A DNA stretch of 42,386 nucleotides, from positions 1-42,386 of the forward strand of contig CAIWVL010000086.1 of assembly GCA_903916085.1 (NCBI GenBank), given 5' to 3'. The stretch is from an uncultured Spartobacteria bacterium. GTDB lineage: Bacteria; Verrucomicrobiota; Verrucomicrobiia; Chthoniobacterales; Chthoniobacteraceae. Both the position numbers and the translations under genes were made by a program. Of this stretch, positions 11,909 to 30,106 are shown piece after piece. How positions within the stretch are numbered: the stretch's first letter is position 1; each line of letters starts with the position of its first letter. The notes beneath the pieces were generated by a model, which was not told where the DNA came from, searched no databases, and saw only the letters and a program-made list of their open reading frames with translations.

Positions 11909-12868
11909 CTACCCCTGCGCGTTCTTGATTCCTCGCAACACGCTTAGCATCCCCTCTCGCAGACTGGTTGCGCGAAAGCCGTCAGGCACTATCGATTGGC
12001 TGTAGGTGTTGTGAAGCGCGTTTTGTGGAGCCCACTGATAGGACACATACAGCTTGCGCCCAAGTAACTCTTCGGCCAATCGGCTGATCTCCAAAATAGA
12101 CGACGGCTTTCCCGAGACCAGGAACCGTGTGCACCGTTCGCCCTCCAAACCCGTCGCCAATATTTCCGATCCGATCCAGTGCCCTACGTCCAAGTTGAAA
12201 ACGTAATCCCGGAGAGTAGTCGGGTCGCCGGAGATGGTACTCACCCCTCTCCTCATCCCATTCAAGAGCAGAGCCGAAATCAACCCGACTCGCCCCTTGA
12301 GCGCATGCCCGTAAATCGTGCTGGGCCGGTAGACGAAGGCGGACTGAAGCGCACTTGCCTCCCCCAGCGCTGTCTCCTGCAGCGCCTTGAATTCTCCATA
12401 CGGCCGCAACGGGCAAGGTCGGCTCTCCAGTCCAACATTGCGCTGCCCCTCGAACAGACCGCCCGCGGAGCTAACCATAAAAAAGCGCGTCGCCCAGAGC
12501 GGCGCAACCTGAGCAAGTCGTTCTCCCAATGAGAGTACGCATTTGAAATGTTCCAACTCTCGCGCATGCTCAGCCACCGGGGACTGAAAGCCTGCCCCGC
12601 CCGCAGACCAAACCACCGACAATCTAGGACACACGCTATCGTCTCCGCGACTAACAGGATGCCTTTGAACCGCCCCACAAACCTGCCGAACCGCCCCCTC
12701 CACGCCCAACGGTTCGCGCCAGTTTATCGGCACCTCCGAAACAACGGAGGCTCCAGCGCGCCTTAACTCTCCGCAAATGGCCCCACCCACCAATCCGACA
12801 CCAAACACCGCCACAAGATGCTCTCCCAAAGGAGGACCCGTAATCTGCCCGGCAGATAGAATTTTCAC
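11909..12868 (-). CDS. NAD(P)-dependent epimerase/dehydratase (extended SDR)
   Basis: A 319-residue extended short-chain dehydrogenase. The nucleotide-binding segment VAVFGVGLVGG sits at about residues 19-29, after an unusual lead of some 18 residues, and the catalytic pair is Tyr157/Lys161 (RPYGEFKAL), with Ser133-Ser134 upstream. A C-terminal substrate domain contains RPSTIYGHALKG and RDYVFNLDVGHWI. Such enzymes epimerise, dehydrate or reduce nucleotide sugars; the exact reaction cannot be read from the sequence. The GTG start overlaps the stop of the upstream glycosyltransferase by four bases (GTGA), so it is the last gene of a minus-strand glycan operon. Confidence 0.85.
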   Translation of the reverse strand: MKILSAGQITGPPLGEHLVAVFGVGLVGGAICGELRRAGASVVSEVPINWREPLGVEGAVRQVCGAVQRHPVSRGDDSVCPRLSVVWSAGGAGFQSPVAEHARELEHFKCVLSLGERLAQVAPLWATRFFMVSSAGGLFEGQRNVGLESRPCPLRPYGEFKALQETALGEASALQSAFVYRPSTIYGHALKGRVGLISALLLNGMRRGVSTISGDPTTLRDYVFNLDVGHWIGSEILATGLEGERCTRFLVSGKPSSILEISRLAEELLGRKLYVSYQWAPQNALHNTYSQSIVPDGFRATSLREGMLSVLRGIKNAQG

Positions 12869-13872
12869 AGATTACGTTGCGTAAAAAACCTAGCAACAGC
12901 CGCGTCGCTTCTCCGGTCGATGATAAAAAACGTAGGTTTGCCCTGAATGTGTAAAACCACTCCCGTCAGATACTCCAGAATGACACTCAGCATGGAAATC
13001 GACAGTCCGCCAAAAAACAGGGAGGCGAGAAACAGAGAGGCCCAGCCTCGGGGAACTGTAGACTCTTTTTGAATAAGGTTTTGCGCCAGAATCCAAACCC
13101 CAAAAACCAGATCCGCAACCATGACACCGAACCCAACCAAGGCACCCATGCGCAGGATTTTGGTTTGAGAAGAAATGATCATGCGCCTGGCATGGCCAAG
13201 AAGCCTCCCAAGAGAATAGCCGCTAGAGCCGCTTTGAATGAAGCGCGCGTCCTTCATCGGCATCGTGAGCGAGTCGATGCGGTTGGTGAACCACGTCAGG
13301 GCGATATCGTAGTACGTTTCATGCGAACAGACGCTCGCCGCACTTCTTGCAACGCTACCGCGAAGTAGCCGAAAGCTATTGAAGTGGCGAATACTTTTGT
13401 TGCCCGTCAAAAGCACTAGCGCCCGTTTCAGACAAACCGATCCCATGTCGCGCCACCGGGACTGGTGCACAGCAGACTCTGGGCGGGCATAGACAATGTC
13501 GAGTTCACCGCACACTGCGGCCTCCAGCATCTGCGCCATGTTGCGCGGGTCGTGCTGCAAATCCTCGTCCAAGGTCACGATCCAGTCGCCGGAAGAATGC
13601 AAAATGCCCGCAATGGTGGCCGGATGCTGGCCGAAATTCCGAGAGTTGGTAATCACCCGAACCCATGGATGCACTTCACACAGTGTATCCAAAACAGCGG
13701 CAGAGCTGTCGATGGCGTTGTCATTCACAAAAATACTCTCCTCCAGCTGAAACGGAGACGCCTGCTGTGCCCACTGCGCTCGCACTTCGGCAAGAGCGGC
13801 GACCAGCTGACTCAGATAATCTGCACCAGCGTAGACAGGGGTGACCGTGGTGATCTTCAGCGACGGATTCAT
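12865..13872 (-). CDS. GT2 glycosyltransferase with C-terminal membrane segments
   Basis: A 335-residue enzyme with a GT-A domain of the DPM1/GtrB/ArnC type: KITTVTPVYAGADYLSQLV at the N-terminus, a divergent nucleotide-binding loop VNDNAIDSS, and the metal-binding TLDEDLQHDPRNM. Two hydrophobic segments near the C-terminus (ALVGFGVMVADLVFGVWIL and ASLFLASLFFGGLSISMLSV) would anchor it in the inner membrane. This layout suits transfer of a sugar to undecaprenyl phosphate, giving a lipid-linked donor. ATG 13872 is preferred to an upstream TTG at 13884. It lies between the GatZ-like gene and the SDR in the minus-strand operon. The GT-C-like proteins encoded further along could use such a lipid-linked donor. 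Confidence 0.9.
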   Translation of the reverse strand: MNPSLKITTVTPVYAGADYLSQLVAALAEVRAQWAQQASPFQLEESIFVNDNAIDSSAAVLDTLCEVHPWVRVITNSRNFGQHPATIAGILHSSGDWIVTLDEDLQHDPRNMAQMLEAAVCGELDIVYARPESAVHQSRWRDMGSVCLKRALVLLTGNKSIRHFNSFRLLRGSVARSAASVCSHETYYDIALTWFTNRIDSLTMPMKDARFIQSGSSGYSLGRLLGHARRMIISSQTKILRMGALVGFGVMVADLVFGVWILAQNLIQKESTVPRGWASLFLASLFFGGLSISMLSVILEYLTGVVLHIQGKPTFFIIDRRSDAAVARFFTQRNL

Positions 13873-13968
13873 TTGGTTCGGCAACGCACAACAGTCTCAG
13901 AGGATTAAATGCAGAGCGTACCTAGTGAGATTCAGGCGCGCCCTAAACCGGCGAATTAAAGCAAACCC

Positions 13969-15126
13969 CTAAACAAGTCGAAACGCCTTAAGGTAGAGCT
14001 CAATCGAAGCCTCAACGGCATTGACTAGAACGGTATCCAGATCAATGTTCTTTTTCTCAAGACAAACCATCGCCTCCCTTTTGGCATCTTCCACCTCTGG
14101 ATGACTAAATACGTAATGCGCCGAAATAACCGCACGATCCAAGTCGGGGGCAGTAGTTCCGGGGGTCATCCATTTCTCCCACTTGCGAGATTCAAACGCT
14201 TCTTTGAGGAGAGTTTCCTCCAAATGAACGAGATGATGCTCCCGACACAGCTTCAAAAGCGCACGAGTTTCCACCACACCGAACTCTGGGGCTACGTTGG
14301 CTGCGTGAATTCCCAACCGCGGGTGCAAATCCAGAATGGTGGCAGGCAAATAATCCGTGTTGTGTTGTTTAACCCAGAAACCATGCCTAGCCGTTGTCTC
14401 TAAAAGATCGAGGATCTGAGCTTGCATCGGCTCACTCCCAGGCTCAAACCAAGATTGCAAGACACCGACATTGCGTGTTTCTACAACTCTTGTGCCGGTT
14501 TGCACTACGATGAAAGACAGGGACTGAAGCCCGCTTTTCGCACAGAAGTCCTTTAATCGACCCGCGAAATAGTTCAATTCTTCAATAGAATTCGCATGTG
14601 CTTTTTGTTCCTCCGCCCCGACCTCGATAATAATTTCTTTCCCCAGCCGATTTGCGGTTTCACAGCAAAACTCGTATAGCTCAAAGATTCGCTCCAGCAC
14701 CTGATCCACCTCAGGGGCAGTCCCCAGAGCGAGGCTCGGATCAATGTGAATCACGCTAAATCCGTTTTCAATGTCGCGCAGGTACGACAGCTTGGCGGAT
14801 TCCATGGCGGCAGCGAGATCCAAGCCGCGGTCCACTTCCAAAGGATTCTGCCAAGGCCCACCATGATCCCGTGAGAGGATGATGTTCCGACGTTTGTCAC
14901 GCTGAGCAACGTATCCAGCTAAAGATGCAGTGTTCCAACGATTCACGTAACCGCCTCCAAATTCCTCGGCATCCACCTGGCGCCGGGAGGCAATCAACAT
15001 CAGGGGGACATCATGGCGATTCGCCAGATTCAACGTCGCATCGACGCAGTTTTTGCTCATCGGCCCCACGCCAAGAAGCGTGCACTTTCCTGAACCAAGA
15101 ATTCGGGCCAGTCGCTCGCGAATCAT
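13969..15126 (-). CDS. GatZ/KbaZ-like protein (tagatose-bisphosphate aldolase, non-catalytic subunit family)
   Basis: About 385 residues resembling the GatZ/KbaZ family: a TIM-barrel protein with N-terminal TLLGVGPMSKNCVDATLNLA, IILSRDHGGPW, VIHIDPSLAL and a C-terminal HYVFSHPEV segment. Classical GatZ supports the GatY aldolase in galactitol catabolism, but no GatY, PTS or kinase partner is here. Instead the gene is coupled to a KdsC-like phosphatase and sits in a glycan operon, so it may itself make or cleave a carbon-carbon bond in a sugar precursor; that is inference. ATG 15126 gives an ATGA overlap with the phosphatase stop; ATG 15135 is an in-frame alternative. Confidence 0.8.
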   Translation of the reverse strand: MIRERLARILGSGKCTLLGVGPMSKNCVDATLNLANRHDVPLMLIASRRQVDAEEFGGGYVNRWNTASLAGYVAQRDKRRNIILSRDHGGPWQNPLEVDRGLDLAAAMESAKLSYLRDIENGFSVIHIDPSLALGTAPEVDQVLERIFELYEFCCETANRLGKEIIIEVGAEEQKAHANSIEELNYFAGRLKDFCAKSGLQSLSFIVVQTGTRVVETRNVGVLQSWFEPGSEPMQAQILDLLETTARHGFWVKQHNTDYLPATILDLHPRLGIHAANVAPEFGVVETRALLKLCREHHLVHLEETLLKEAFESRKWEKWMTPGTTAPDLDRAVISAHYVFSHPEVEDAKREAMVCLEKKNIDLDTVLVNAVEASIELYLKAFRLV

Positions 15127-15671
15127 ACTGTCCATTCCCCCGACATTTTATGCTGACTACCGGGCAGTTGCAGCGGGTTGTAAGGCTCAAAAAAACGTTC
15201 AAGCAGATGCAGGCAGGCCTCTGCCACAGCCCGATCTCCACCACTTCGCTGAGTCACATAGTGCGCTGCCTGCTTTGCTAAGGGATCTCCATTCACTGGC
15301 GCAATGGCGTAGGCAACTTCACGCATCACGTAGTGGTCAAAAATACCGTCCCCCATGTAAACAACGGATCTCAGCGGGTACTTTTCTGAAATCCAGTCTA
15401 CGCGACGAATAGTGCTCACAAGATCCAGTTCGAAACCCATGTCATCCACAATCCGCCTCTTGGAAATGGCGAACCCCTTTTTATCACCGGTCACAAACCT
15501 AATTTTCATGTGAGGGCGCAGTAGGGAAAGTGCATCGTGATCGTCGGCACCAAAAACCTTCATGACCTTCCCCTCGGAACTGTAGAGGAAAGTGCCGGAA
15601 GTCATGACGCCGTCTACATCAAGAATGAAGACGGAGGGCACTGCGGGCTGGGCGGTGTCTTGGGGGGGCAT
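15123..15671 (-). CDS. KdsC-like HAD phosphatase
   Basis: A 182-residue C0-type HAD hydrolase without cap domain, the fold of KDO-8-phosphate phosphatase. The nucleophile and acid/base aspartates are Asp18 and Asp20 in FILDVDGVMTSG. Motif II is the Thr in FVTGDKKG, followed by SKRRI. The acidic motif IV is MGDGIFDH, in place of the usual GDxxxD with Asn. A C-terminal AAHYVTQRSGGDRAVAEA matches the KdsC tail. It probably removes phosphate from a sugar or ulosonic acid phosphate in the cytosol. It is first in the minus-strand operon and overlaps the GatZ-like gene, suggesting they act in consecutive steps. No KDO synthase or CMP-KDO synthetase is adjacent, so the substrate need not be KDO. Confidence 0.85.
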   Translation of the reverse strand: MPPQDTAQPAVPSVFILDVDGVMTSGTFLYSSEGKVMKVFGADDHDALSLLRPHMKIRFVTGDKKGFAISKRRIVDDMGFELDLVSTIRRVDWISEKYPLRSVVYMGDGIFDHYVMREVAYAIAPVNGDPLAKQAAHYVTQRSGGDRAVAEACLHLLERFFEPYNPLQLPGSQHKMSGEWTV

Positions 15672-16137
15672 GGGTTACAGTGCAGGGAAATACGCTGTCG
15701 TTTAGTCATTACTAACTCGCAAGAATGTTAGCCATCCCTCCGCCAAGGGAAAGCGGATTCATGCTTTGCCAGAACACCTATCTCAGCAATCGGCTACCGC
15801 AAGGGGTTGGCTAGGTCCTAGCACACGAACGCCTTCGCAGAGCAAAGAACAAATGAACCAGTGAAGCTGCCGACCACAGCCCCAATGAGTTCGTCCCGAA
15901 AATTTGAAACACTGTCGTTCCACCTCTCCCTCTGCTCGTTCCGCATGCCCCCAAACTTAACGAGCTTAATCGCAGCAACTCGAACGGATTCGCTGGACGG
16001 CTGTGCCGCATTTTATGAAGCTCAGGCGTCTGCTTTCGAATCTAAAAAATGCGTGCATCGATAGAGCGCTGCCGAAATTTTCGCGCTCCATTCGCCTGCC
16101 GAGATGTCGGATCAGTTCAAGCCAAACATCCCAATCT
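15672..16137. promoter_or_regulatory. Divergent intergenic region between the two glycan operons
   Basis: 466 bases separating the minus-strand operon that starts with the phosphatase and the plus-strand operon that starts with the cupin gene. Promoters for both must lie here, but I could not pick convincing -35/-10 pairs. An open frame reaches back from the cupin gene to about 16003, but its composition (many Arg, Ser, Leu) does not look coding. Nothing else was recognised. Confidence 0.5.
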
Positions 16138-16899
16138 ATGAGTGATACATACGGAGGCAACCTAGTGGCGCATCACAACCTAGAGGCAGCTCAAACGACC
16201 CCCTTCGCCTCTGCCTCGATCCCTTACTCATACCGCCACCTCGCATTGCAAGACGGCTCTGCCGTTTCCTTAGAAACGACTACCGGCGCATACAGTGTTT
16301 TCGTCCTCTCCTTGAGCCAAGGAGCCCAACTGCACTTCAGCTCACTAGGGGACGCCGTATTGGAAGGTGAAGCCGTTCAGATTGAGCACCTTAGTGTCAG
16401 TGTCCGAGTCCAAGGAGGCACTGCCCGTTTGCTCTTGGCAGGCTCTCCCGACGCCAGACACATCGCACCCCGAATCGAGCGCCATTCGGCCGACGCGATC
16501 AAAAAAGTGACCAAGCCCTGGGGGCACGAACTCTGGATTCACGCAAACCACCCAGACTACGCATTCAAAGAAATCTTCATCAAGGCAGGCACCAAAACCA
16601 GCCTCCAGTACCATAGGTTCAAACAGGAGACGAATGTCCTGTTTAAGGGCCATGCAGTGCTTCACTACAAAGCCGACGAATCTGCACCACTGGACCATCC
16701 CAGTACGGACCAAATGGGAACCCTTGAACTGCAACCTGTCTCGTCCATCGACGTCACTCCGCTTGTGCTGCACCGCATTGAGGCCTGCACCGACATCCTG
16801 TTATACGAGGTCTCCACGCCTTTCTTGGACGACGTGATCCGGGTAAGCGACGACAGCAACAGACCCGACGGCCACATCGCAACGGAACATTCAGCCTGA
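16138..16899 (+). CDS. Cupin-domain protein related to type II phosphomannose isomerase
   Basis: A 253-residue protein. The second half has the signature of the cupin domain at the end of mannose-1-P guanylyltransferase/PMI enzymes: KPWGHELWI, then FKEIFIKAGTKTSLQYHRFKQE and NVLFKGHAVLHY, with His and Glu in metal-ligand positions. The first half is less conserved and may be a second cupin. A role as sugar-phosphate or keto-sugar isomerase is likely; the substrate is unknown. The ATG at 16138 is chosen because upstream codons read as non-coding sequence. The next gene begins within a few bases of its stop, so it leads a three-gene operon with the nucleotidyltransferase-kinase and the dehydrogenase. 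Confidence 0.8.
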   Translation: MSDTYGGNLVAHHNLEAAQTTPFASASIPYSYRHLALQDGSAVSLETTTGAYSVFVLSLSQGAQLHFSSLGDAVLEGEAVQIEHLSVSVRVQGGTARLLLAGSPDARHIAPRIERHSADAIKKVTKPWGHELWIHANHPDYAFKEIFIKAGTKTSLQYHRFKQETNVLFKGHAVLHYKADESAPLDHPSTDQMGTLELQPVSSIDVTPLVLHRIEACTDILLYEVSTPFLDDVIRVSDDSNRPDGHIATEHSA

Positions 16900-16903
16900 G
16901 GTG

Positions 16904-18487
16904 ATGAGTACTCCCACTGTCTGCATACCGACGGCCGGTAAGGGCACCCGCATGGAGGGCCTAGGCGCGGATCTCAACAAGGCACTGCTACCGCTGGGAC
17001 TCCAAGGGGTCATTTCCCACATCATCGCCCGATTCCCCAAGGAAACCCGCTTCGTGATTGCTCTCGGCTATAAGGGCAACCAAGTCCGAGATTATCTCGC
17101 AGCCGCCCATCCCCTGATCGACTTCCAGTTTGTTGAAGTGGACCGCTTTGAGGGCCCAGGTTCTGGTCCCGGATATTCGCTCTCCAAATGCGAGGCGCAC
17201 TTGCAAACGCCATTCTTCTTTGTTTCCTGCGACACGCTTTGGGACGGAGAAATTCCCTTTGAATCAGAACACAACTGGTTTGGAACGGCCCCCGTCCCTC
17301 GCGAGGAAGCTCCGCACTACTGCAATTTTACGCTCACTAGCGGGGAACCCGTTATCTCAGGGATTTTTGACAAAACACAGGCGCCCGAGAACACCCGCGC
17401 CGAGGCGTTTATCGGCCTGTGTTACATCCGGAATTGCGACCTGTTCTGGCCTTCGCTCAAGCAGGACGTCTTGGTCGGTGGCGAGCACCAGATTTCCAAC
17501 GGCATTCGGGCCCTCGTCGACAGCGGCAAGGCCGTCGCACGGACTCTGGATTGGACGGATCTAGGAACTGCGGAGCGGTTCTTGCGTGCAGCAGCAAAGC
17601 ACCAAGATTACGACTTCAGCAAAGTAGGCGAATTTCTGTACATCCTGAATGGCCGGGTAGTTAAATTCTTTGAAAACCAGTCCATCGTTGAAAAACGAGT
17701 CGCTCGCGCCCGCCTCAACCCCGCCGTATTTCCTCCAATAACCACCTGCGCCGGACAGTTTTATTCCTACGACTTTGTCCCTGGAAAAACCTTGTATCAG
17801 GAAAATTCACCGGCCATCTTCCGCAAGCTACTAGCTTGGCTGAAGCAAAATCTTTGGAGGCACGACGCAGTGTCACCCATAGATTTTGAGGCAAAATGCG
17901 ATACGTTTTACAAAGTTAAGACACTCGAAAGGCTGGCTGCCTATCACCTCAAGTACCCAGGATCCGATGTTGCATCGACGGTCAACGGCATCCGCGTTCC
18001 CTCAGCGTCTGAACTCCTGGGGCAGGTTCCTTGGGAAAAACTACTCAAGGGCTCGCCCGCTTTCTTCCACGGCGACCTGCAATTCGACAACATCCTGTAC
18101 GCAAGCGAACTAGACTCATTTACGCTGCTCGACTGGCGTCAGGATTTCGGCGGAGACGTAGCCGCAGGCGACCAGTATTACGACCTAGCCAAACTCAATG
18201 GCGGTATTCTCCTAGCCTACGACTTCATTAAAAAGGGATTGTTCGCCTACGCCCAGTCTGAGGATTCCATCACCCTGGATTTCGCAAGCCGTTATCTCTC
18301 GCAGGAGTACCAGGCGATTCTTGCCGAGTTCGTTCGCGCAGAAGGTTTAGACTGGGACCACATCCGCCTGATGACAGCGATCATCTTCCTGAACATGGCA
18401 CCGCTACACCACTTTCCGTTCGACAAGCTTCTGTACGCGCTCGGCCGTCAGCACTTGCATAACGCGCTGAATGGACCAGCTCATTAA
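16904..18487 (+). CDS. Nucleotidyltransferase-kinase fusion
   Basis: A 527-residue two-domain enzyme. Residues 1-230 are a sugar-nucleotidyltransferase fold (CIPTAGKGTRM, DLNKALLPLG, SCDTLWDG). Residues 240-527 are an aminoglycoside/choline-kinase-like phosphotransferase with the Brenner motif HGDLQFDNIL and metal-binding LLDWRQDFGG. The fusion should phosphorylate a small molecule and then activate it with an NTP, as in salvage of a free sugar. LicC-LicA-like fusions, which make CDP-choline by the same domain order, are an alternative, but no LicD transferase is seen. GTG 16901 or ATG 16904 could be the start. It overlaps the following dehydrogenase gene by 17 bases, a strong sign of a shared pathway. 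Confidence 0.85.
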   Translation: MSTPTVCIPTAGKGTRMEGLGADLNKALLPLGLQGVISHIIARFPKETRFVIALGYKGNQVRDYLAAAHPLIDFQFVEVDRFEGPGSGPGYSLSKCEAHLQTPFFFVSCDTLWDGEIPFESEHNWFGTAPVPREEAPHYCNFTLTSGEPVISGIFDKTQAPENTRAEAFIGLCYIRNCDLFWPSLKQDVLVGGEHQISNGIRALVDSGKAVARTLDWTDLGTAERFLRAAAKHQDYDFSKVGEFLYILNGRVVKFFENQSIVEKRVARARLNPAVFPPITTCAGQFYSYDFVPGKTLYQENSPAIFRKLLAWLKQNLWRHDAVSPIDFEAKCDTFYKVKTLERLAAYHLKYPGSDVASTVNGIRVPSASELLGQVPWEKLLKGSPAFFHGDLQFDNILYASELDSFTLLDWRQDFGGDVAAGDQYYDLAKLNGGILLAYDFIKKGLFAYAQSEDSITLDFASRYLSQEYQAILAEFVRAEGLDWDHIRLMTAIIFLNMAPLHHFPFDKLLYALGRQHLHNALNGPAH

Positions 18488-19280
18488 CAACCAGACCCGT
18501 GTCTTCCTCTCGGTAGCCGCTCAGCCGGGTAACTTTGGCGCTACGGTTTTCAATGCCCTGTTCGTTCACTACGGAATCAACGCCGTCTACATCCCGAGAA
18601 CGGCACCGTGTCCGGAACACTTGACGAGCGCGCTCAGAGCTCTGGCTATCGCCGGTTGTTCGGTGAGCATGCCCCTCAAGAGCACAGTCATCCCACATCT
18701 GGACGATCTCTCCGAGGAGGCAAGACGCATTGGATCGGTGAATACCATCATCAACGAAGAGGGTGTCCTGACCGGGCATAACACGGACTTCTCTGGTTGC
18801 CTCCAAGTTCTATGCGCACACACCGTGCGTTCTCTAATCGTGTATGGAAGCGGTTCAGTTGTAAACTCGATCGTGTTCGCGGCAAAGCGGGCGGGTATTT
18901 CAAAAATCCGATTATGCGGCAGGAACGCTTCGCAAGTAAGCGCGAAAGCTAGCGAACTAGGTGTGCAGGCTGGAACGGAGCCAAACGCCCAATACGACCT
19001 GATGGTAAACGCCACTCCTGCTGGAGACGCTCCGGAGGACGACATCCGCGCTTTGCTGCCAACGTGCAGGGGCCTTTTTGACTTACGGGTGCGCCCCCAA
19101 GCCTCCGCATTAGAACTCGCCGCCCATAAGCTCGGTCTTTGGACCGTGCCCGGAATTGAAATGGCAAAATTCCAACTACAAAAGCAGTTTGAGTTGTACG
19201 TCGGAGTTCTGCCTCCGATGGAACTCATCGACGCCTGCATTCAGCACCGTTTTCTGGAGAAAAAACTCACTGAAGGCTAA
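18471..19280 (+). CDS. Shikimate-dehydrogenase-like oxidoreductase
   Basis: A 269-residue protein with the AroE fold. The catalytic-type residues are kept: Lys70 in SMPLK, Asn91 in SVNTI and Asp106 in HNTDFSG. A Rossmann segment (LIVYGSGSVVNSIVFAA) follows, with MVNATPAG and the C-terminal GIEMAKFQLQKQFELYVG. However, the N-terminal SxS motif that grips the shikimate carboxylate in true AroE is replaced by QPGNFGATVFN, so shikimate is probably not the substrate. Placed after a kinase-nucleotidyltransferase in a glycan operon, it may oxidise or reduce a cyclic polyol or sugar acid. Its stop overlaps the convergent glycosyltransferase gene by four bases. Confidence 0.85.
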   Translation: MDQLINNQTRVFLSVAAQPGNFGATVFNALFVHYGINAVYIPRTAPCPEHLTSALRALAIAGCSVSMPLKSTVIPHLDDLSEEARRIGSVNTIINEEGVLTGHNTDFSGCLQVLCAHTVRSLIVYGSGSVVNSIVFAAKRAGISKIRLCGRNASQVSAKASELGVQAGTEPNAQYDLMVNATPAGDAPEDDIRALLPTCRGLFDLRVRPQASALELAAHKLGLWTVPGIEMAKFQLQKQFELYVGVLPPMELIDACIQHRFLEKKLTEG

Positions 19281-20101
19281 TTAAGCTCTTTCGGGCTGTG
19301 AGAATACACCACATTTGCCTCGTAACTTTCCAAGTTCAAGCCGTTGTGATCCTTCTTAAAAATCCAATTCCGATCGAAAACATACTTGGTGAGCATAGCT
19401 AACATTTCCCGAATTTGACGTAGCGCCCGCACATTGGAAACTTGGTCAGTTTCGCGCCAAGTGATTGGAAAGAAAACACAATTCCAGCGCCATTCGGCAT
19501 AGGCCAGAGTTAAGAAGTAGTTGAATGTCAGGTTATTTCTAAAGCCCATCCAGTCAGTTTTAGCTAACGCCTTGACCGAATAGACATTCAGGCCGGAACC
19601 CAAATCTGAAATCCATCGGAGCGTGACTGCCGAGAATAGCGCGTTGAATACGATGTTACCAAGGGTGCGAATGGAAGAGTACCCAGTTCGCTGGGACCCG
19701 CTCATGAACCTTGAGCCAAGCCAGCAATCAATCGCAGAGTCTTTCTTGATACTAGCCAACAACGGGAGAACGTCCCGCACATCCGCCTGATCATCTCCAT
19801 GCAAAATGACAAGTAGATCAAAGTTATTTTTCATCGCGTACTTGAACGCAACTTTGTGCGATCCGCCCAGATTAAGGTTCTGAAGATTTCTCACGATGGT
19901 GAGCTTTGTGCCCAATGATGCCGCTGAATCCTGAGCCGCTGCAAGCGTGTGATCGGGGCTGCCATTATCAACAACCAGCACTTCGTGAAAGCTTCGGGCC
20001 GACTCTGCCACACGGCGCAACACACGCCGTAATTGCGGCGCACAGTTGTACGCTGGAATGAACAAGAGAACTCTCGGGCACTGGGTAATGTCGGGATTCA
20101 T
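19277..20101 (-). CDS. GT2 glycosyltransferase, DPM1-like without membrane anchor
   Basis: A 274-residue GT-A enzyme: VLLFIPAYNCAPQLRRVL, VLVVDNGSPDHT and the metal-binding LVILHGDDQADVRDVLP, then LGSRFMSG and the catalytic helix ISDLGSGLNVYS. No C-terminal transmembrane pair is evident, unlike the GT2 at 12865-13872. It resembles polyprenyl-phosphate or UDP-glucose/GDP-mannose dolichol-type transferases. ATG 20101 gives the standard start; the longer open frame beyond it has no GT2 similarity. It runs opposite to its neighbours and overlaps the end of the dehydrogenase gene. Confidence 0.88.
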   Translation of the reverse strand: MNPDITQCPRVLLFIPAYNCAPQLRRVLRRVAESARSFHEVLVVDNGSPDHTLAAAQDSAASLGTKLTIVRNLQNLNLGGSHKVAFKYAMKNNFDLLVILHGDDQADVRDVLPLLASIKKDSAIDCWLGSRFMSGSQRTGYSSIRTLGNIVFNALFSAVTLRWISDLGSGLNVYSVKALAKTDWMGFRNNLTFNYFLTLAYAEWRWNCVFFPITWRETDQVSNVRALRQIREMLAMLTKYVFDRNWIFKKDHNGLNLESYEANVVYSHSPKELN

Positions 20102-20248: not shown

Positions 20249-22213
20249 ATGAAAATCTCCATGCCCTCCTCCCGCGCCCACTGGAGCGCGCTTCTTTTCT
20301 TGCTGCTTGCAGCCGCATGGATCTTTGCCGGTTGGCAGCCCGAACCAGGTTACTACAAAAGCTGGCCCGGAGTGCAGCCCATCTGGTCCGACCCAATCCA
20401 CGGGCTGCCACGCATTTGGGCAGGAGAATCCACTCTGGGAGCCTATCTACTCGACCTAGGGTATTTTAGTGGTTGCTGCATTCTCGGCTGGCGCGTTTTC
20501 CTGCGTCCCGTCCTCCTCGGTAGCGTTGGAGGACTACGGATGGTTCCCGTGATGGCTGGATTCATTCCCGGCTACCTGCTACTCGCTCCGTTCAACCGTA
20601 TCCTCACCCTCCTGATCCCAAACCGCCCTGCCGCATTTTTGGAACTGGGCTGTGTGGCAGGGTTCGCGGCGTGGACAATTTACCTCGCCCTCCAGGGACG
20701 CTACACCAACCCCAAACCCGAGCGCAAGAACCGCTCCCTCGGCATCCAGGTTCTGGGACAAATCTGGCCACTACTAGCCCTTCTCATAGTGCTGGTGTGG
20801 GGTATTTGCCACGTCACGGGTGATGCAACAGGCTTCACTTTTCAGGCTATCTTTAATAACGCAAAACAGTTTCCAGCCCCGAATTCTCATCTTCCTTTTT
20901 TCGGTCAGCACTACGACGAAATCGCCTTCCTACACCCAGTCTTATTTTCAGGACTTTTGACGGCCGACAGCGACCTGCTGGCTCCATACTGGTTGATGAC
21001 GGGCTTTGCACGGATGTCGGTCTTATTCATCTGTTATTTCTGCGTCCGCAGACTTGGATTGCAAAAATTGGAAGCGGTCGGCGTCGCTTTGTTTCTATTT
21101 TTAAGCAGCATTGAAATCAACCCACTTGGAGATTGGGAGTTTGTGGATAGCAGTCATTCGCTAGTTTACACAGCACATCCTGCACGTCTTGTTGGTGGGA
21201 TAGCTCCCTTGGTTTTTGCTGTTGGATACATCAAATTTCTGCGTGGAGCCCGACTGCGCTCTTTGAGCCGGAGCCTATGGATTGCAGTTGCCCTCGGGTT
21301 GGGAATCACAAGCCTGTCTTTCCACGTCTTCGCGACACTCCTGCTCATGGGTGGACTTTGCCTGGCTCTTTTGCCCCCTACATGCCAGCTCAAAAGGACG
21401 GTCGCTTGGACGGCAGTACCGTGGTCGCTCATGCTCCTAATTTTGCCACCGATCGCCTACGAACGGCGCTTTGATTTCCACGGACAACACCTCGTTTTCT
21501 TCGCGTTCTGCATGGGTGCGGCCATCTATGCACTGTACCGCAGAGGTGGGTTTGGCTACCTAAAGGCGTGGATTCAGGCACCAAACTGGTCTGGCAAACT
21601 GCTGCGAACGGCGGCATGGCTTGGAGGTGCCCTGTTCGGATTTGTGTTTCTAGGAAATCTATTCGCGCCGAAGTTGGGCCTGTACAAACTCCTTGGCCTC
21701 GAGCTGCTTACTCGGGGCGTGTCCCCCGGAGCATTTGCCCCTGGCCTGATCAACACTTCTCTGCCTGCCATTGCCAATGTCCTATGGAGCGCCTCCTCGC
21801 CTTCGCACTTCATCGCCGCGTTTGGCTTACCTCTCCTGCTATGCGCCTCGGTGTTTTTCACCTATGGCACAATGCGCCCAAGCTCTCGCCGGGCAAACCT
21901 GCTCCTTTGCCTAGTTGAGTGCATGCTGCTAGGCTACTTAGGTGCCCTAGTGCTGTTCCACTTCATGGGTAAAGGAGTGACTTTCTGGCTCGAGCTCTGG
22001 GTTCGCAGTCGCTTCACCGAAGGTTGGCTGTACGGCCTAAGCGCGGCTTCACTCTGCGCACTTTTCAAAATTTCACAGCGCCGCTACCGGCATCTAATCC
22101 TAGGTTTGGTACTTTTTTGGGCGCTTCTGCCCTGGATAGGCAACTTTAAGGGCGTTCTTGCCGGGCAGATCGTCTCGAATCTGCGCTGGATGCTCAACCA
22201 ACTCCATGGCTGA
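20249..22213 (+). CDS. Large multi-pass membrane protein of the glycan locus
   Basis: A 654-residue integral membrane protein with roughly a dozen hydrophobic segments, the first at residues 12-28, and a short positively charged N-terminus. Loops contain DWEFVDSSHSLVYTAHPARLVGG and an extended LIPNRPAAF region. I do not recognise a family motif with certainty. The length, topology and neighbourhood fit a GT-C-type glycosyltransferase or an O-antigen ligase/polymerase acting on the outer face of the inner membrane. It is followed after 118 bases by a second large membrane protein in the same direction. ATG 20249 is the first start; an ATG at 20261 would also serve. Confidence 0.75.
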   Translation: MKISMPSSRAHWSALLFLLLAAAWIFAGWQPEPGYYKSWPGVQPIWSDPIHGLPRIWAGESTLGAYLLDLGYFSGCCILGWRVFLRPVLLGSVGGLRMVPVMAGFIPGYLLLAPFNRILTLLIPNRPAAFLELGCVAGFAAWTIYLALQGRYTNPKPERKNRSLGIQVLGQIWPLLALLIVLVWGICHVTGDATGFTFQAIFNNAKQFPAPNSHLPFFGQHYDEIAFLHPVLFSGLLTADSDLLAPYWLMTGFARMSVLFICYFCVRRLGLQKLEAVGVALFLFLSSIEINPLGDWEFVDSSHSLVYTAHPARLVGGIAPLVFAVGYIKFLRGARLRSLSRSLWIAVALGLGITSLSFHVFATLLLMGGLCLALLPPTCQLKRTVAWTAVPWSLMLLILPPIAYERRFDFHGQHLVFFAFCMGAAIYALYRRGGFGYLKAWIQAPNWSGKLLRTAAWLGGALFGFVFLGNLFAPKLGLYKLLGLELLTRGVSPGAFAPGLINTSLPAIANVLWSASSPSHFIAAFGLPLLLCASVFFTYGTMRPSSRRANLLLCLVECMLLGYLGALVLFHFMGKGVTFWLELWVRSRFTEGWLYGLSAASLCALFKISQRRYRHLILGLVLFWALLPWIGNFKGVLAGQIVSNLRWMLNQLHG

Positions 22214-22331
22214 GCTCCGCTGCACCTGTAATGCATTAGTGAGGTCTCAGCCTGTGTCACTGAAGCTCTCGCTTTCTTCACGCTTAGGGTTCAATGGAGT
22301 AATCTAGCCTTAGTTCATTTTTCAACACCCC

Positions 22332-24032
22332 ATGGATTACCGTCTCTTAATCGCATCACTGCTTTGGGGTTCCCTCGTTGCCATTGCCCTCCGCGCAGCC
22401 TTGATACGGACTTCCGACAACCAACTTCAATGGAAAGTATGCCTCCTTACATTTGGCATCGTCCTAGCCGCAGCCCTTCCTGTGTGGCGTTTGAAGAGCC
22501 TTCTTTACGATGGAGAAATCAATGTTGACGAAAGCCAACTGCTCTCGCAGGCCATGCGCTATGCGATTGACCCGCTCCCGTGGCGCTCAGTGGACGGCGG
22601 TTCCAGCGGTCCACTGAACACCTGGGTGGTTCTGTGGGCGCCCCTATTCGGGTTGAAGTTCAATTATCTAGCGGCACGCATTACCAGTATCTTGTGTCTA
22701 TGGAGCATGTTCATGGGCTTGGCGCTCGCCCTAGCAGAACTCGCGGGCCGCAGGCTCGCCCTGCTGTTGTTACTCCCTGCGCTCACATTCGTACTCACTA
22801 CAACCAACCTCGACTTCGCCTTTCTCTCAAGCGAGCAACTCCCATCAGCCATCAGCGCATGGGTGATTTACCTAATCGCTCGCCAGCTCCGCGCCCCAAG
22901 CAGATGGGCTGCCTACGGGATCGGACTACTTACTGGGGCGCTCCCCTTCTGTAAAATTCAAATCGGCCCGGCTGCCGTGCTCCTTTTTCTAGCGGCAGCC
23001 GTGGTTTTATGGACGCGATTTGGCGCGTCGCGAAACCTGCTACGCTGGCTGCTCGTCCAATCCGCAGGAGGCTTGAGTGTTCCTGCACTTATCCTCATTC
23101 CAGTGGCCCTAGGCGGCGCTTGGAATGAGTTTTTCCAATTTTACATTCACTCAGCTCTTTCCTACAAAAACACTGGGGCAGCGATGCCAGCCATGGATGT
23201 AAGTGCGCTATTTTTCTCAGTGCGAGAATTTGGCTTTCTGAGCGTTCTCAGCGGTTTACTTACGATTTTTGCACTGAGCGCAGCCTGGCTTAACCGCCGC
23301 GCTTTCCTCCGCCAAAAGAGTTATCTTTGGACCTTCTTGCTCTCATTCATTTATCTAATCCTCGTTGCAGGAAGTATCTTAAAAACAGGTTATCCGTTTC
23401 CGCACTACCTAATGTTTTTGATCGTTCCGAGCGTCACCCTGTTGGGCGTGAGCTTTATTCCACTTCACCGGGTGCAACAGGTTCACGAGGAGACCGCTCC
23501 TAAATTCAATCGACTTTCCATCGCGGGCCTTTGCGTTGTGTTGACCGCTATCTTCGTGCAAGCCTCGGCGACCGTCGGTGACCTCGTTCGCAACCCCGTG
23601 CTCCGGGGAAATTGGGGATCTGGCCTACATCCCATTGGTGAGGTCATTCGGAAGCTAGTGAACCCTGGGGACTCTATCGCCATCTGGGGCTGGGCACCCA
23701 AGTTCTGTGTCATGTCCCAAACGCCCCCCGCCTTCAGATTTAGTCAAAGCCTGTTTTTCTTAGATGAATCTCCGGCCTTCCAAGAAGTACGCGGCTTCTA
23801 CTTGGACCGGTTCTTAAACGATCTCGAAAAGAGTCGCCCCAAACTTTTCATCGACGCTCCCGATGAGTTCATGTGGCCAGGATATCCCCACGGAATAATG
23901 GCGCGACACTGGGCGCTACCTGTGTTGAGCGAGTTTGTGCGCAAAAACTATTCGCTGTTAGGCTCAATCGAGTCCCCCCCCGGCAAGACGGCAATCATGA
24001 TCTATCGGCGAAAAGAGGACGGCCCAAATTAA
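22332..24032 (+). CDS. GT-C-type membrane glycosyltransferase (GT39/ArnT-like)
   Basis: A 566-residue membrane protein with about ten to twelve hydrophobic segments. After the first two segments comes an extracytoplasmic loop with paired acidic residues (GEINVDESQLLSQAMRY) followed by WRSVDGGSSGPLNTW, the loop arrangement of PMT/ArnT enzymes that take sugars from lipid-phosphate donors. A soluble C-terminal domain (residues 430-566) contains NPGDSIAIWGWAPKFCV. It likely transfers a sugar in the periplasm, with the acceptor unknown. The TM-anchored GT2 at 12865-13872 could make its lipid-linked donor. Confidence 0.75.
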   Translation: MDYRLLIASLLWGSLVAIALRAALIRTSDNQLQWKVCLLTFGIVLAAALPVWRLKSLLYDGEINVDESQLLSQAMRYAIDPLPWRSVDGGSSGPLNTWVVLWAPLFGLKFNYLAARITSILCLWSMFMGLALALAELAGRRLALLLLLPALTFVLTTTNLDFAFLSSEQLPSAISAWVIYLIARQLRAPSRWAAYGIGLLTGALPFCKIQIGPAAVLLFLAAAVVLWTRFGASRNLLRWLLVQSAGGLSVPALILIPVALGGAWNEFFQFYIHSALSYKNTGAAMPAMDVSALFFSVREFGFLSVLSGLLTIFALSAAWLNRRAFLRQKSYLWTFLLSFIYLILVAGSILKTGYPFPHYLMFLIVPSVTLLGVSFIPLHRVQQVHEETAPKFNRLSIAGLCVVLTAIFVQASATVGDLVRNPVLRGNWGSGLHPIGEVIRKLVNPGDSIAIWGWAPKFCVMSQTPPAFRFSQSLFFLDESPAFQEVRGFYLDRFLNDLEKSRPKLFIDAPDEFMWPGYPHGIMARHWALPVLSEFVRKNYSLLGSIESPPGKTAIMIYRRKEDGPN

Positions 24033-25892: not shown

Positions 25893-26924
25893 ATGAAAAT
25901 TTTAGTTACTGGCAACTTAGGCTACATAGGATCCGTACTCACCCCAGCGCTCGAGAATCTAGGGCACGAAGTGACGGGGCTAGATACCGGTTACTTTGAC
26001 GAATGCCTGTTCATGGAGCCCCAAAGGCCCCGAACACAGGTGTACAAAGACATCCGCGATGTTGAAGCGACAGACTTCGAGGGATTCGAGGGCGTGGTGC
26101 ATCTAGCCGGCCTGTCTAACGATCCACTAGGCGAACTTAACCCGGGTCTCACCGAAGAGATCAACTTTAAGGGCAGCATCCGCGCAGCACAGAAAGCGAG
26201 GGAGGCAGGAGTGCGCCGCTTTGTGTTCGCCTCCTCTCAAAGCATGTACGGAGTCTCCACGACTGACGCCGAACTTGACGAGGACCTGAGCGCCAAAGCC
26301 CCCGTCACAGCCTACGCTCGCACGAAGTGGGAGGCTGAACTGGCGCTTAAAACGTTCTCATCTGACGAATTCAGCGTCACCTCGTTCCGCCCCTCGACCG
26401 TGTTCGGAGCGAGTCCTAGGCTGCGCTGCGACATCGTTTTTAACAACCTCGTGGCATGTGCATTCACAAAGGGTCGAATTGAAATCAAAAGCGACGGCAC
26501 GCCTTGGCGTCCGGTCGTCCATGTAAAGGACGTTTGCCAAGCCTTCATCGCCGGGCTGACGGCCCCCCTGGAGCTTGTCCAGGGCCGCTCCTTCAATGTG
26601 GGCATTCCAAACGGCAACTTCAGCGTAGCCGACCTCGCCGAAGCAGCACGGCAAAGTGTCCCAGGAGTTGAACTCACCTATACAGGGGAGCACGGCAAAG
26701 ATTCGCGCAGCTACCGCGTATCTTTCGCTAGAATCCTGAGCGAACTCAAAGAGCATTTCTTGCCGGAATGGGGACTGGAACGAGGCGGTCGCGAGTTGGT
26801 TTCGTTCTTCAAGGAAACTGGATTTACCGAACGCGATTTCGGGGGCGAAAAGTCCATCCGCCTCCAGAAACTGAAAGAGCTTCTGGCGCAAAACCGCCTT
26901 ACTAAAGACCTTCGCTGGACCTAG
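25893..26924 (+). CDS. Nucleotide-sugar epimerase/dehydratase (extended SDR)
   Basis: A 343-residue extended SDR. It has the intact TGNLGYIG dinucleotide motif at residues 6-13, VVHLAGLSNDPL, the serine pair in FASSQSMYG, and the catalytic Tyr141/Lys145 in TAYARTKWE. The substrate domain contains FRPSTVFGASPRLR and PWRPVVHVKDVCQAF. It probably modifies a nucleotide sugar; close relatives are found in 6-deoxyheptose and related pathways, which would suit the heptose genes downstream, but that is inference. It is the first gene after the AlbA_2 insertion and likely begins the plus-strand operon. Confidence 0.9.
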   Translation: MKILVTGNLGYIGSVLTPALENLGHEVTGLDTGYFDECLFMEPQRPRTQVYKDIRDVEATDFEGFEGVVHLAGLSNDPLGELNPGLTEEINFKGSIRAAQKAREAGVRRFVFASSQSMYGVSTTDAELDEDLSAKAPVTAYARTKWEAELALKTFSSDEFSVTSFRPSTVFGASPRLRCDIVFNNLVACAFTKGRIEIKSDGTPWRPVVHVKDVCQAFIAGLTAPLELVQGRSFNVGIPNGNFSVADLAEAARQSVPGVELTYTGEHGKDSRSYRVSFARILSELKEHFLPEWGLERGGRELVSFFKETGFTERDFGGEKSIRLQKLKELLAQNRLTKDLRWT

Positions 26925-26997
26925 TCCTTCACCGCACCATCCCATCAAATGGTCCGATTCACATTGCCACAGTGACCCTAGCGAAGATCTCTAGAGT

Positions 26998-27891
26998 ATG
27001 AGAGTAGTTCTCACAGGTGGATCAGGTTTTCTGGGGAGGCCTTGTCTGGAACTCCTCCTTCAAGGCGGACATGAAGTCCTCGCCATTTCTCGGGGCATTC
27101 CCGGTGAGCCCGCACCCGGAGGACTCCACTGGCATTCCGCAGACCTCAACCTGCCCTCTTCGTACGCTGCCGCACTAGAGGAGTTTCAGCCGCAAGCCGC
27201 CCTACATCTGGCTTGGGAAGGTATTCCTGACTACTCCCTCGCCAATAGCCTGAGGAACCTGCAGACGGGATCAATGTTCACAGAAGCCCTTCTGAAAGTT
27301 GGATGCAAACACGTCGTAGCAAGCGGCTCTTGCTGGGAATACGGCAAGCTTTCAGGGGCTCTGAGCGAAAACATGGAACCTGCCGCACCCGGCGTCTTCG
27401 GTGCCAGCAAAACCGCCCAACGCATACTCCTGCGCTCGCTGACTCAAGCAGCAGGCGCCACGCTTGCTTGGGCCCGCGTATTTTATCCATTTGGTCCCCG
27501 ACAGAAGGCTAAGTCACTCGTTCCGACTATCTGCCAGTCTATCCTGTCAGGACACAGTCCCGACATCAAAACCCCGTGGGCGGCGAACGACTTTCTGTAT
27601 TTAGATGACACAGCCGACGCTCTCGTCTTCCTAATCGAGAAAGGTGCAGATGGCGTTTTCAACGTGGGTTCAGGAGCAACTACTGCAGTCGGCAAAATTG
27701 CAGACATGCTTCTCCAGCTTGCCGGACGAGAGCCCCATTTCTCGACGCTTGGCGAGTCCACCTCGGGGACATCCGGCTTTTTTGCCGACATTGCAGCCAT
27801 GAACGCAATAGGCTGGCGGGTAAAAACTTCTCTGGAAGAGGGCTTGCGCCGGACGTTTGTTGAATACACGGAACGTCCAACGACATGCTGA
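26998..27891 (+). CDS. SDR-fold nucleotide-sugar enzyme lacking the catalytic tyrosine
   Basis: A 297-residue extended SDR with TGGSGFLGR at the start and the expected serine region (VASGSCWEYG, residues 107-116). The Y-x-x-x-K motif is altered: Phe134 stands where tyrosine is expected in VFGASKTAQ, while Lys138 is kept. The rest of the fold (YPFGPRQKAKS, NDFLYLDDTADAL, GVFNVGSG) is normal and the frame is intact, so this is not simple decay. The enzyme may use another base, or bind without redox chemistry. It overlaps the next gene by 7 bases and sits in the heptose part of the operon. Confidence 0.88.
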   Translation: MRVVLTGGSGFLGRPCLELLLQGGHEVLAISRGIPGEPAPGGLHWHSADLNLPSSYAAALEEFQPQAALHLAWEGIPDYSLANSLRNLQTGSMFTEALLKVGCKHVVASGSCWEYGKLSGALSENMEPAAPGVFGASKTAQRILLRSLTQAAGATLAWARVFYPFGPRQKAKSLVPTICQSILSGHSPDIKTPWAANDFLYLDDTADALVFLIEKGADGVFNVGSGATTAVGKIADMLLQLAGREPHFSTLGESTSGTSGFFADIAAMNAIGWRVKTSLEEGLRRTFVEYTERPTTC

Positions 27892-29105
27892 CGCAACAAG
27901 CAGTTATTCTTTGCGGAGGTAGAGGATCCCGCCTACGCCCACTGACGGACACCCTTCCCAAGCCCCTTGCGCCGGTTGCAGGGAAACCTTTCCTGTTCCA
28001 CTTGCTCAGCCAACTCAAACGGAACGGCTACACTGAGGTCGTCCTTCTTACCGGCTATTTGGGACATTTGATCGCTGAAGAATTTGGCGATGGCTCCACC
28101 CTAGGCCTGAGCATCACCTATCACCACGGGCCTGAAGAATGGGAAACAGCCTTCCGCCTCGCCCAGGCTAGACCATTGTTGAAGGAGCATTTTCTTCTGC
28201 TGTACGGTGACAATTACGCAATGTTCCAACAGGAACGGCTTGAGCAAAAATTCGTCCATTTCGGCAGAATCGGATGTCTTACAGTTTATCCGAGGAAAGC
28301 CCGAGCCAATGTCGCCTATACAGTTGAAGGAGATGTAACCACCTACGATGGCACGCGTGCAGCACCGGGCCTCAATGGGGTGGAAATAGGCTACGCTCTA
28401 TTTTCCCGCGAGGTTTTCTCGCATTTCACCGGCGAAAACGAAAGCTTCAGCAAAGTATTGTCACGCTTGGGCGAGGCCCGCCAATTGTGCGCATACTCGC
28501 TTGCGGGAGAGTATCACAGCGCATCGGATCTGGAGCGGCTTAAAATCACCGACGCTTATTTGAGGCCAAAAAAAATTCTGCTGATCGACAGGGACGGAAC
28601 GATCAACCGCAAAATGCCAGAGGCTCAATACGTCACGACATGGGATCAGTTTGAGTTTATCCCAGAAAGTGTAGAAGGCATGCGACGACTAGCCGAATCC
28701 GGCTGGACGTTTGCCGTGGTGTCCAACCAGGCGGGAGTTGCCCGAGGGATGTTGACTGAAGCAGAGGTCTGGGATCTAGATCGCAGGATGGTCGGAGCGC
28801 TTCGCGAAGAGGGCATCCAAGTGATCAAGAGCTACTACTGCTTTCACCACTGGGATGATAAATGTAGTTGCCGAAAGCCGGAACCGGGCATGTTACTTCA
28901 AGCGTCTCGGGAACTCATGCTTGCGCTAGAAAACACTTGGTACATTGGAGATGACTTGCGAGATTGCACCGCCGCATGGAGAGCAGGCTGCCGCTCCGCA
29001 CTCGTCGGACACTCAGAAAACTGGCAACAACTCCCCCCCGAAGAACGCCCACAGATCTGCTGCGATACCGTCAGCGAGTTCGCTTCGATCCTCCTATCGC
29101 AATGA
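27885..29105 (+). CDS. hddC-gmhB: Fused heptose-1-phosphate guanylyltransferase and heptose-1,7-bisphosphate phosphatase
   Basis: A 406-residue fusion. Residues 1-225 are a nucleotidyltransferase (AVILCGGRGSRLRPLTDTLPK, then LLYGDNYAMF) of the HddC/RmlA-like group. Residues 230-406 are a GmhB-type HAD phosphatase (LLIDRDGTINRK, VVSNQAGVARG, the zinc-loop ligands in CFHHWDDKCSCRKPEPGM, and YIGDDLRDC). In the GDP-D-glycero-alpha-D-manno-heptose pathway these are the last two steps: removal of the 7-phosphate and transfer of GMP. The fusion order is nucleotidyltransferase first. It overlaps the preceding SDR by 7 bases and the following kinase by 4 (ATGA), so coupling is tight. GDP as the nucleotide is inferred from the adjoining hddA. 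Confidence 0.9.
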   Translation: MLTQQAVILCGGRGSRLRPLTDTLPKPLAPVAGKPFLFHLLSQLKRNGYTEVVLLTGYLGHLIAEEFGDGSTLGLSITYHHGPEEWETAFRLAQARPLLKEHFLLLYGDNYAMFQQERLEQKFVHFGRIGCLTVYPRKARANVAYTVEGDVTTYDGTRAAPGLNGVEIGYALFSREVFSHFTGENESFSKVLSRLGEARQLCAYSLAGEYHSASDLERLKITDAYLRPKKILLIDRDGTINRKMPEAQYVTTWDQFEFIPESVEGMRRLAESGWTFAVVSNQAGVARGMLTEAEVWDLDRRMVGALREEGIQVIKSYYCFHHWDDKCSCRKPEPGMLLQASRELMLALENTWYIGDDLRDCTAAWRAGCRSALVGHSENWQQLPPEERPQICCDTVSEFASILLSQ

Positions 29106-30091
29106 TCATTTCACGCACCCCATTCCGCGTTAGTTTTGTCGGCGGTGGAACAGATTTGGAGAGTTATTACTCACAAAAGGACGGACGCGTCTTGAGTACA
29201 TCGATCGACAAATACATTTATGTTTGCATCAAGAAGCCATTACACGAGATCGTTGGGGCCAAATATCGCATCGCTTGGAGCAAGCTGGAGTACAAAGATA
29301 ACATTGATGACATTGAACATCCAATTGTCCGCGAGGCGTTGAAGATGTTTAAAATCGACCATCCTTTGGAGGTCGTTACATTCGCCGATGTACCCGCACA
29401 CACTGGGCTTGGATCTTCCAGTTCCTTCGCCGTAGGCCTGCTCAACGCACTCTATGCCCTTAAGGGGGAAACGGTATCCAAACACCGCCTCGCCACTGAA
29501 GCCGCCGCGATTGAAATCGAGCGGCTCACCCGCCCAGTTGGAAAACAGGACCACTTCGCAGCATCATACGGAAACATTAACGTTTTCTCGTTTCACAAAA
29601 CCGGATTTGTTTCAGTCGATCCAGTCTGTTACTGCCCAAAAAAAAGGAAGGCGATTGAAGAACGTCTGATGCTATTTTATACGGGCATGCAGCGTGATGC
29701 GAGCACCGTCCTACAAAAACAACAAGCCGTCGCGACGGAAAAAGCAGAAACACTCACTGCAATGGCGGACTTAGTGGACCCGTTGAGGGAATTATTTGTA
29801 TCAGGTGGAAAACACGATGGGTTCGGGAAGATTCTGCACCAAAACTGGGAATTAAAACGTTCCATCACACCGGTTATTTCCTCCTCAGAAATAGACCACT
29901 GGTACGCAACGGCCCTTGAGGCGGGTGCCACTGGCGGCAAGCTCCTTGGAGCTGGAGGAGGAGGATTCTTATTGCTGGATGTCCCCACTGAGCGCCAGGA
30001 GAGTGTCCGCGCCGCCTTGAAAAATCTTCTCGAACTACCCTTCCGCTTTGATGATGGAGGCTCCAGAATCTCTTTTTATGATGAACGCTAG
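29102..30091 (+). CDS. hddA: D-glycero-alpha-D-manno-heptose-7-phosphate kinase
   Basis: A 329-residue GHMP kinase. It has MIISRTPFRVSFVGGGTDL at the N-terminus, the ATP-binding loop PAHTGLGSSSSFAVGLLNAL, PVGKQDHFAASYGN and the C-terminal GATGGKLLGAGGGGFLLL, all typical of HddA. It phosphorylates C1 of heptose 7-phosphate to give the 1,7-bisphosphate for the fused GmhB domain encoded just upstream. The frame is open further upstream, but ATG 29102 gives the family N-terminus and an ATGA overlap with the fusion gene. The first pathway enzyme, GmhA (sedoheptulose-7-phosphate isomerase), is absent from the window. Confidence 0.92.
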   Translation: MIISRTPFRVSFVGGGTDLESYYSQKDGRVLSTSIDKYIYVCIKKPLHEIVGAKYRIAWSKLEYKDNIDDIEHPIVREALKMFKIDHPLEVVTFADVPAHTGLGSSSSFAVGLLNALYALKGETVSKHRLATEAAAIEIERLTRPVGKQDHFAASYGNINVFSFHKTGFVSVDPVCYCPKKRKAIEERLMLFYTGMQRDASTVLQKQQAVATEKAETLTAMADLVDPLRELFVSGGKHDGFGKILHQNWELKRSITPVISSSEIDHWYATALEAGATGGKLLGAGGGGFLLLDVPTERQESVRAALKNLLELPFRFDDGGSRISFYDER

Positions 30092-30106
30092 TTCCCCCCT
30101 TTCTTT

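Follow-up and report, generated by a model that had tools for sequence, protein, structure and literature searches.

The window analysed here, 42,386 nucleotides of contig CAIWVL010000086.1 from an uncultured Spartobacteria bacterium, contains two divergent sets of coupled genes, together referred to as the cassette (Table 1). A check of the open reading frames bore out the genes, the strands and the two overlaps described in the first-pass annotation. On the reverse strand, the stop codon TGA of the HAD gene (15125-15123) overlaps an ATG internal to the called GatZ frame (15126-15124) as ATGA. Since GatZ homologues begin at the Met of this ATG, the gene probably starts there. On the forward strand, the fusion and the AroE-like gene share 17 bases (18471-18487). 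The cupin was taken to start at ATG 16138 (MSDTYGGN...) and not at GTG 16003, because its homologues in two genomes of the same genus (L008 and L009) read MNQNYGGN.... The catalytic motifs examined look intact.

Table 1. Predicted genes of the cassette, its neighbours and the separate heptose region.
Feature	Coordinates	Strand	Remarks
KdsC-like HAD phosphatase	15123..15671	-	Conserved C-terminal tail with SGEWT at its end
GatZ/KbaZ-like metal-dependent TIM barrel	13969..15126	-	ORF call opens at 15135; AF2 model and kept metal site
Two-domain cupin	16138..16899	+	Start set from homologues
NTase-kinase fusion	16901..18487	+	N-terminal sugar-1-phosphate nucleotidyltransferase (GalU/RmlA/MurU/LicC fold); predicted C-terminal APH-type kinase
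AroE-like oxidoreductase, SDH-L/HI0607 group	18471..19280	+	Putative accessory step
GtrB/ArnC-like membrane glycosyltransferase	12865..13884	-	Local neighbour, downstream of GatZ
SDR-type protein, epimerase/dehydratase-like	11909..12868	-	Local neighbour; unmatched in other loci
GT2 glycosyltransferase	19277..20101	-	67% identical to a gene adjoining GatZ in same-genus locus L009; start borrowed from that homologue
MurU/HddC-like NTase fused to GmhB-like 7-phosphatase	27885-29105
HddA-like kinase	28964-30091
SDRs of the heptose region	starts 25893, 26998, 30107

The cassette proteins give genuine family matches, but these are weak and in most cases fall short of the curated cut-offs, and the set therefore carries no standard annotation; the Pfam and NCBIfam scores nevertheless uphold the family assignments made from the sequence at first reading. 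PADLOC returned no match. Of the flanking genes, the SDR-like and GtrB-like pair showed no recurrence with the cassette. The region 20249-24032 encodes two large proteins without a Pfam match, whose homologues (47% and 41%) lie beside the cassette in L009. A canonical set of the NDP-heptose type was also found at 25893-30991, 9 kb from the cassette; the earlier statement that textbook nucleotide-sugar enzymes are lacking thus holds for the adjacent genes but not for the window.

Recurrence of the gene set

When 84,980 species genomes were scanned with an alignment of the GatZ clade, 48 loci came up. The HAD, GatZ-like, cupin and fusion genes were all present in 36 of the 49 loci compared, a count that includes ORFs overlooked by the clustering and added back manually on the basis of the tblastn table. 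Co-localisation across genomes had been proposed as the check on a shared pathway, and this result supports the proposal: the coupled genes form a real, recurrent and unannotated set that fits activated-sugar synthesis. The same gene order was seen in more than a dozen phyla, and the carriers include Chlorobium, Legionella, Polynucleobacter, Pelagibacter, Prochlorococcus and candidate phyla. On the same strand, HAD is followed by GatZ in 30 loci and the cupin by the fusion in 28, usually at 25 bases or less or with an overlap. The HAD family is represented in 36 loci, in 30 of which it precedes GatZ, and the fusion recurs in 38. Among the gene families around the loci, the usual order is HAD, GatZ, a 274-aa glycosyltransferase-like protein, cupin, fusion and methyltransferase.

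Two of these usual partners deserve mention. The 274-aa protein after GatZ has the look of a glycosyltransferase and no Pfam or NCBIfam match (L064 10167-10988; relatives in 28 loci), and the methyltransferase that often ends the operon bears a C-terminal C-methyltransferase-like domain (L064 12914-14044; relatives in 26 loci). Neither the glycosyltransferase (F4) nor the methyltransferase (F5) was found in the window's genome, in a search run without a positive control.

Closer relatives vary the arrangement. L008 and L009 encode all five enzymes in a gene order different from that of the window, with identities of 52-54% for GatZ, 84-86% for HAD, 71% for the fusion, 63% for AroE and 55% for the cupin. 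A genome of another family of the phylum has an overlapping HAD-GatZ pair, then a glycosyltransferase, the cupin and the fusion, and AroE is absent. The large scan took GatZ as its anchor, so a second search started from the fusion and covered 388 genomes from the phylum and 398 from the Polynucleobacter family. Leaving self-matches aside, just two strong hits came up, G144 and G814; both adjoin GatZ, a glycosyltransferase and the cupin, and G144 was also part of the scan alignment. More distant fusions of the phylum (G139, G101 and G166; about 24-26%) were left out of account; the loci inspected around them contain no GatZ. Plasmid searches with the fusion gave only partial matches of 21-29% to general NTase and kinase proteins, with no GatZ where checked.

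Divergence between the families, uncorrected for relatedness, correlated at 0.91 for GatZ and the glycosyltransferase, 0.84 for cupin and fusion, 0.62 for GatZ and HAD, and 0.36 for GatZ and fusion. Since the GatZ-fusion value is so much lower than the 0.91 and 0.84 inside the halves, these data fit a cassette made of two partly exchangeable modules. The layout of the window, in which HAD-GatZ diverges from cupin-fusion-AroE, matches this division. In the fusion tree, the rows with AroE or an SDR all sit within a single set of 16 supported at 99/99; the window's own branch carries AroE only.

Neither a named pathway nor a paper on the cassette was found in open-access full text, which was searched for the GatZ family and for polysaccharide loci carrying the set; as far as that literature goes, the gene set is undescribed. 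The earlier remark that it fits no textbook nucleotide-sugar route stands, none having matched.

Relationships and active sites of the enzymes

The AF2 model of the GatZ-like protein (pLDDT 90.9) superimposes on 2fiq with a Z score of 37.4 and on 3txv with 34.0 (rmsd 2.8), both labelled 'tagatose 6-phosphate kinase', and thus has the GatZ/KbaZ fold. The next-best structures were UxaE (Z 27.7) and tagatose 4-epimerase (27.5), above the class II aldolases, at about 25 or lower. This ranking speaks against the first-pass view that the protein forms a carbon-carbon bond. The curated models scored below their cut-offs (Pfam GatZ_KbaZ-like, PF08013, 23.8 of 26.7 bits; TIGR02810, 22.9 of 568.8 bits). 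When single sequences of GatZ, the fusion and the cupin were compared with solved structures, no useful match was obtained; profiles did better.

The GatZ and KbaZ enzymes of E. coli were reported in 2025 to convert fructose-6-phosphate to tagatose-6-phosphate and are thus C4-epimerases (PMC11907403). Their proposed zinc site comprises His88, Glu171 and His257, with Asp87 as base, and the same paper sets this His/Glu/His arrangement against the three-His one found in class II aldolases (PMC11907403). In our alignment D90, H91, E175 and H258 of the window protein correspond to Asp87, His88, Glu171 and His257 of E. coli GatZ. The two proteins are 24% identical; E. coli K279 is replaced by N280, and the position of E175 is Asp in six relatives. 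Because the published mechanism is computational, this match backs the chemistry and not the substrate. Fold and Asp-His, Glu and His metal/base residues are thus shared with GatZ/KbaZ, but those enzymes serve galactitol or GalNAc catabolism, while the relative in the window belongs to polysaccharide loci. We predict a ketose-phosphate C4-epimerase acting by retro-aldol/aldol chemistry; it counts against this assignment that the clade holds no characterised enzyme.

The HAD protein scored 64.6 of 106.95 bits with the KdsC subfamily model and 56.6 of 208 with PRK09484, short of both cut-offs. It contains the DxDG and GDG motifs (ILDVDGVMT, YMGDG), and DxDG was present in all 37 HAD-family ORFs checked. 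The KdsC-like enzyme is predicted to remove a terminal phosphate. The cupin passes the Pfam MannoseP_isomer cut-off (25.8 against 23.6 bits), and its C-terminal domain resembles the PMI domain of GDP-mannose pyrophosphorylases and aligns to E. coli CpsB. Three ligands, H159, E164 and H212, are kept. The HxH metal motif of CpsB has lost its second His here, so the default reading of the cupin as a ketose/aldose isomerase is uncertain.

The fusion matched Pfam NTP_transf_3 (30.7) and APH (22.0), and was modelled with a pLDDT of 93.5. Its nucleotidyltransferase domain superimposes on GalU (Z 27.5), LicC (24.8) and MurU (24.0). GalU/RmlA come first by Z score and MurU first in Foldseek, LicC was second in the profile search, and the NCBIfam model of MurU gave 19 of 250 bits. 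The HddC model weakly matched 11 of 33 members of the fusion family. The C-terminal domain, for which APH is above the Pfam cut-off in the L064 fusion, appears to be an APH-type kinase and putatively phosphorylates a sugar at the anomeric position.

The AroE-like protein is present in nine loci and an SDR takes its slot in two or three (L047, L084); most loci have neither. The enzyme given the redox step at first reading is thus not part of the core and would act as an accessory. Shikimate_dh_N, the N-terminal domain of AroE, scored above the Pfam cut-off (54.4 bits); the curated aroE model (107.5 of 200.2 bits) and PRK12550 (157.7 of 306) stayed below theirs. The catalytic Lys and Asp (K70 and D106) are invariant in ten AroE-like proteins. 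AroE itself has a Ser-x-Ser carboxylate site. These serines are not kept: the aligned residues against 1nvt are N21-F-G23, and N-F-G is likewise found in HI0607 (1npy), the best solved relative (E 6e-37), which is annotated as hypothetical. The 5-ketofructose reductase 7cok follows (E 2e-15), a likeness at the family level only. The related enzyme of T. morbirosei reduces 5-ketofructose and neither tagatose nor fructose, and no activity was seen with a homologue from Clostridium (PMC7954740); this kinship hints at a class of substrate and no further. A match to chorismate synthase was found in five of nine genomes searched. A duty in the shikimate pathway was rejected, as four AroE-bearing genomes yielded none, some of these being MAGs that may be incomplete. 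A Klebsiella relative (L033 5779-7813; 34%), an SDH-L gene that bears the annotation shikimate 5-dehydrogenase, lies in a PTS operon of the sorbose type, where it overlaps sorE.

A possible route to an activated sugar and its rivals

We interpret the cassette as encoding the de novo synthesis of a rare sugar in nucleotide-activated form, which the nearby glycosyltransferases would use, likely for a surface polysaccharide, and give this reading a probability of about one half. The genes, their recurrence and coupling, the folds of GatZ and of the nucleotidyltransferase domain and the kept catalytic residues were observed; the order of the steps, the substrate, the nucleotide, what the cupin does and the target of AroE are our reading of them. 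The GatZ-like enzyme would epimerise C4 of a ketose phosphate by metal-dependent retro-aldol/aldol cleavage and rejoining, with fructose-6-phosphate to tagatose-6-phosphate as precedent and heptulose-7-phosphate as a possible substrate. The PMI-like cupin may turn the ketose into an aldose, and the KdsC-like HAD would take off the terminal phosphate. The kinase domain of the fusion would then phosphorylate the reducing-end hydroxyl and the nucleotidyltransferase domain add the nucleotide to give an NDP-sugar; in one branch, the AroE-like or SDR enzyme might supply a redox step. With somewhat less assurance, we propose a widespread and hitherto undescribed de novo NDP-sugar pathway with C4 epimerisation of a ketose phosphate by the GatZ clade as its entry and the fused kinase-nucleotidyltransferase as its exit, which would yield a talose-, tagatose- or heptose-type sugar not now credited to the carrier phyla.

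The proposed order follows the logic of MupP-AmgK-MurU or GmhA-HddA-GmhB-HddC with other parts. Phosphatase, 1-kinase and nucleotidyltransferase are known in this succession from MurNAc recycling (PMC5371407) and in another order from heptose synthesis (PMC10680097). As in MupP-AmgK-MurU, a HAD 6-phosphatase, an anomeric kinase and a nucleotidyltransferase, closest by Foldseek to MurU, would act in turn; here, however, kinase and nucleotidyltransferase are fused, the HAD protein is KdsC-like and not of the MupP type, an epimerase and a cupin precede, and there is no muramate context. The heptose route (GmhA-HddA-GmhB-HddC or HldE) similarly combines a ketose-7-phosphate isomerase, a 1-kinase, a 7-phosphatase and a nucleotidyltransferase, but the cassette draws all its parts from other families. 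Choline activation by LicC-LicA pairs a nucleotidyltransferase with an APH-type kinase, whereas the cassette fusion is accompanied by sugar-phosphate enzymes and no choline pathway gene was seen.

Because the recurrent cassette has no family name, the predicted surface sugar escapes current tools in many environmental bacteria, such as relatives of Pelagibacter and Prochlorococcus. If the reading is true, the GatZ/KbaZ fold also serves anabolism, and a testable sugar context opens for the AroE-like (SDH-L) proteins.

An alternative that we hold unlikely makes the GatZ-like protein a true aldolase. It would condense a ketone donor with an aldehyde phosphate to give a ketose phosphate that is longer or unusual and that would next lose its phosphate and be activated. 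The epimerase, too, would work by a retro-aldol mechanism, class II aldolases have the same fold (Z about 23-25), and a GatZ relative of 37% identity adjoins fructose-6-phosphate aldolase in Enterococcus; yet GatZ/KbaZ and 4-epimerase structures align better than all aldolases, and the metal site is of the GatZ type (PMC11907403). A shade less probable still is a CDP- or other NDP-alditol, for which the HAD enzyme would free the ketose, AroE or the SDR reduce it to an alditol, and a LicA/LicC-like fusion phosphorylate and activate a primary hydroxyl. The LicC matches, the ketohexose reductase within the AroE family and the SDR replacing AroE in L047 and L084 agree with such a product, but the majority of loci with this fusion lack both AroE and SDR, GalU, RmlA and MurU match at equal or higher Z, and the T. 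morbirosei enzyme left fructose and tagatose unreduced (PMC7954740).

We regard as very unlikely the activated cyclitol entertained in the first-pass annotation, or a shikimate-like ring. Cyclic polyhydroxy acids are the classical substrates of AroE-family enzymes, and the AroE N-terminal domain is recognised above its cut-off. No positive evidence for a ring emerged, however: the protein aligns best to HI0607 and its family has the ketohexose reducer 7cok, AroE can be dispensed with, Asn21 and Gly23 stand where the shikimate-carboxylate serines would be, and family clustering recognised no cyclase of the inositol-phosphate, 3-dehydroquinate or 2-epi-5-epi-valiolone synthase type in the recurrent set. 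That genes of unrelated function were gathered in a polysaccharide island is hardly credible. Glycosyltransferases and SDRs abound in the region, such islands shuffle, and gene order differs in the two same-genus loci, but order and overlaps recur in many phyla, which contradicts a chance assembly.

Relatives of the GatZ-like protein also occur in other contexts. Those of L005 and L006 (34-37% by tblastn) lie in PTS operons that contain either fructose-6-phosphate aldolase or transaldolase plus transketolase, which suggests that one branch of the clade serves sugar-phosphate catabolism. On the conjugative plasmid pSS05631a of Sinorhizobium (L004 8016-11492), a GatZ relative (41%) is found with a cupin, a PseC-like DegT aminotransferase and a HAD-IA phosphatase, and a type III effector gene is nearby. 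An Actinomycetota contig (L074) combines GatZ, a cupin and a DegT-type gene. Since GatZ and cupin occur with DegT in both Sinorhizobium and Actinomycetota, the two may be a common entry to several products.
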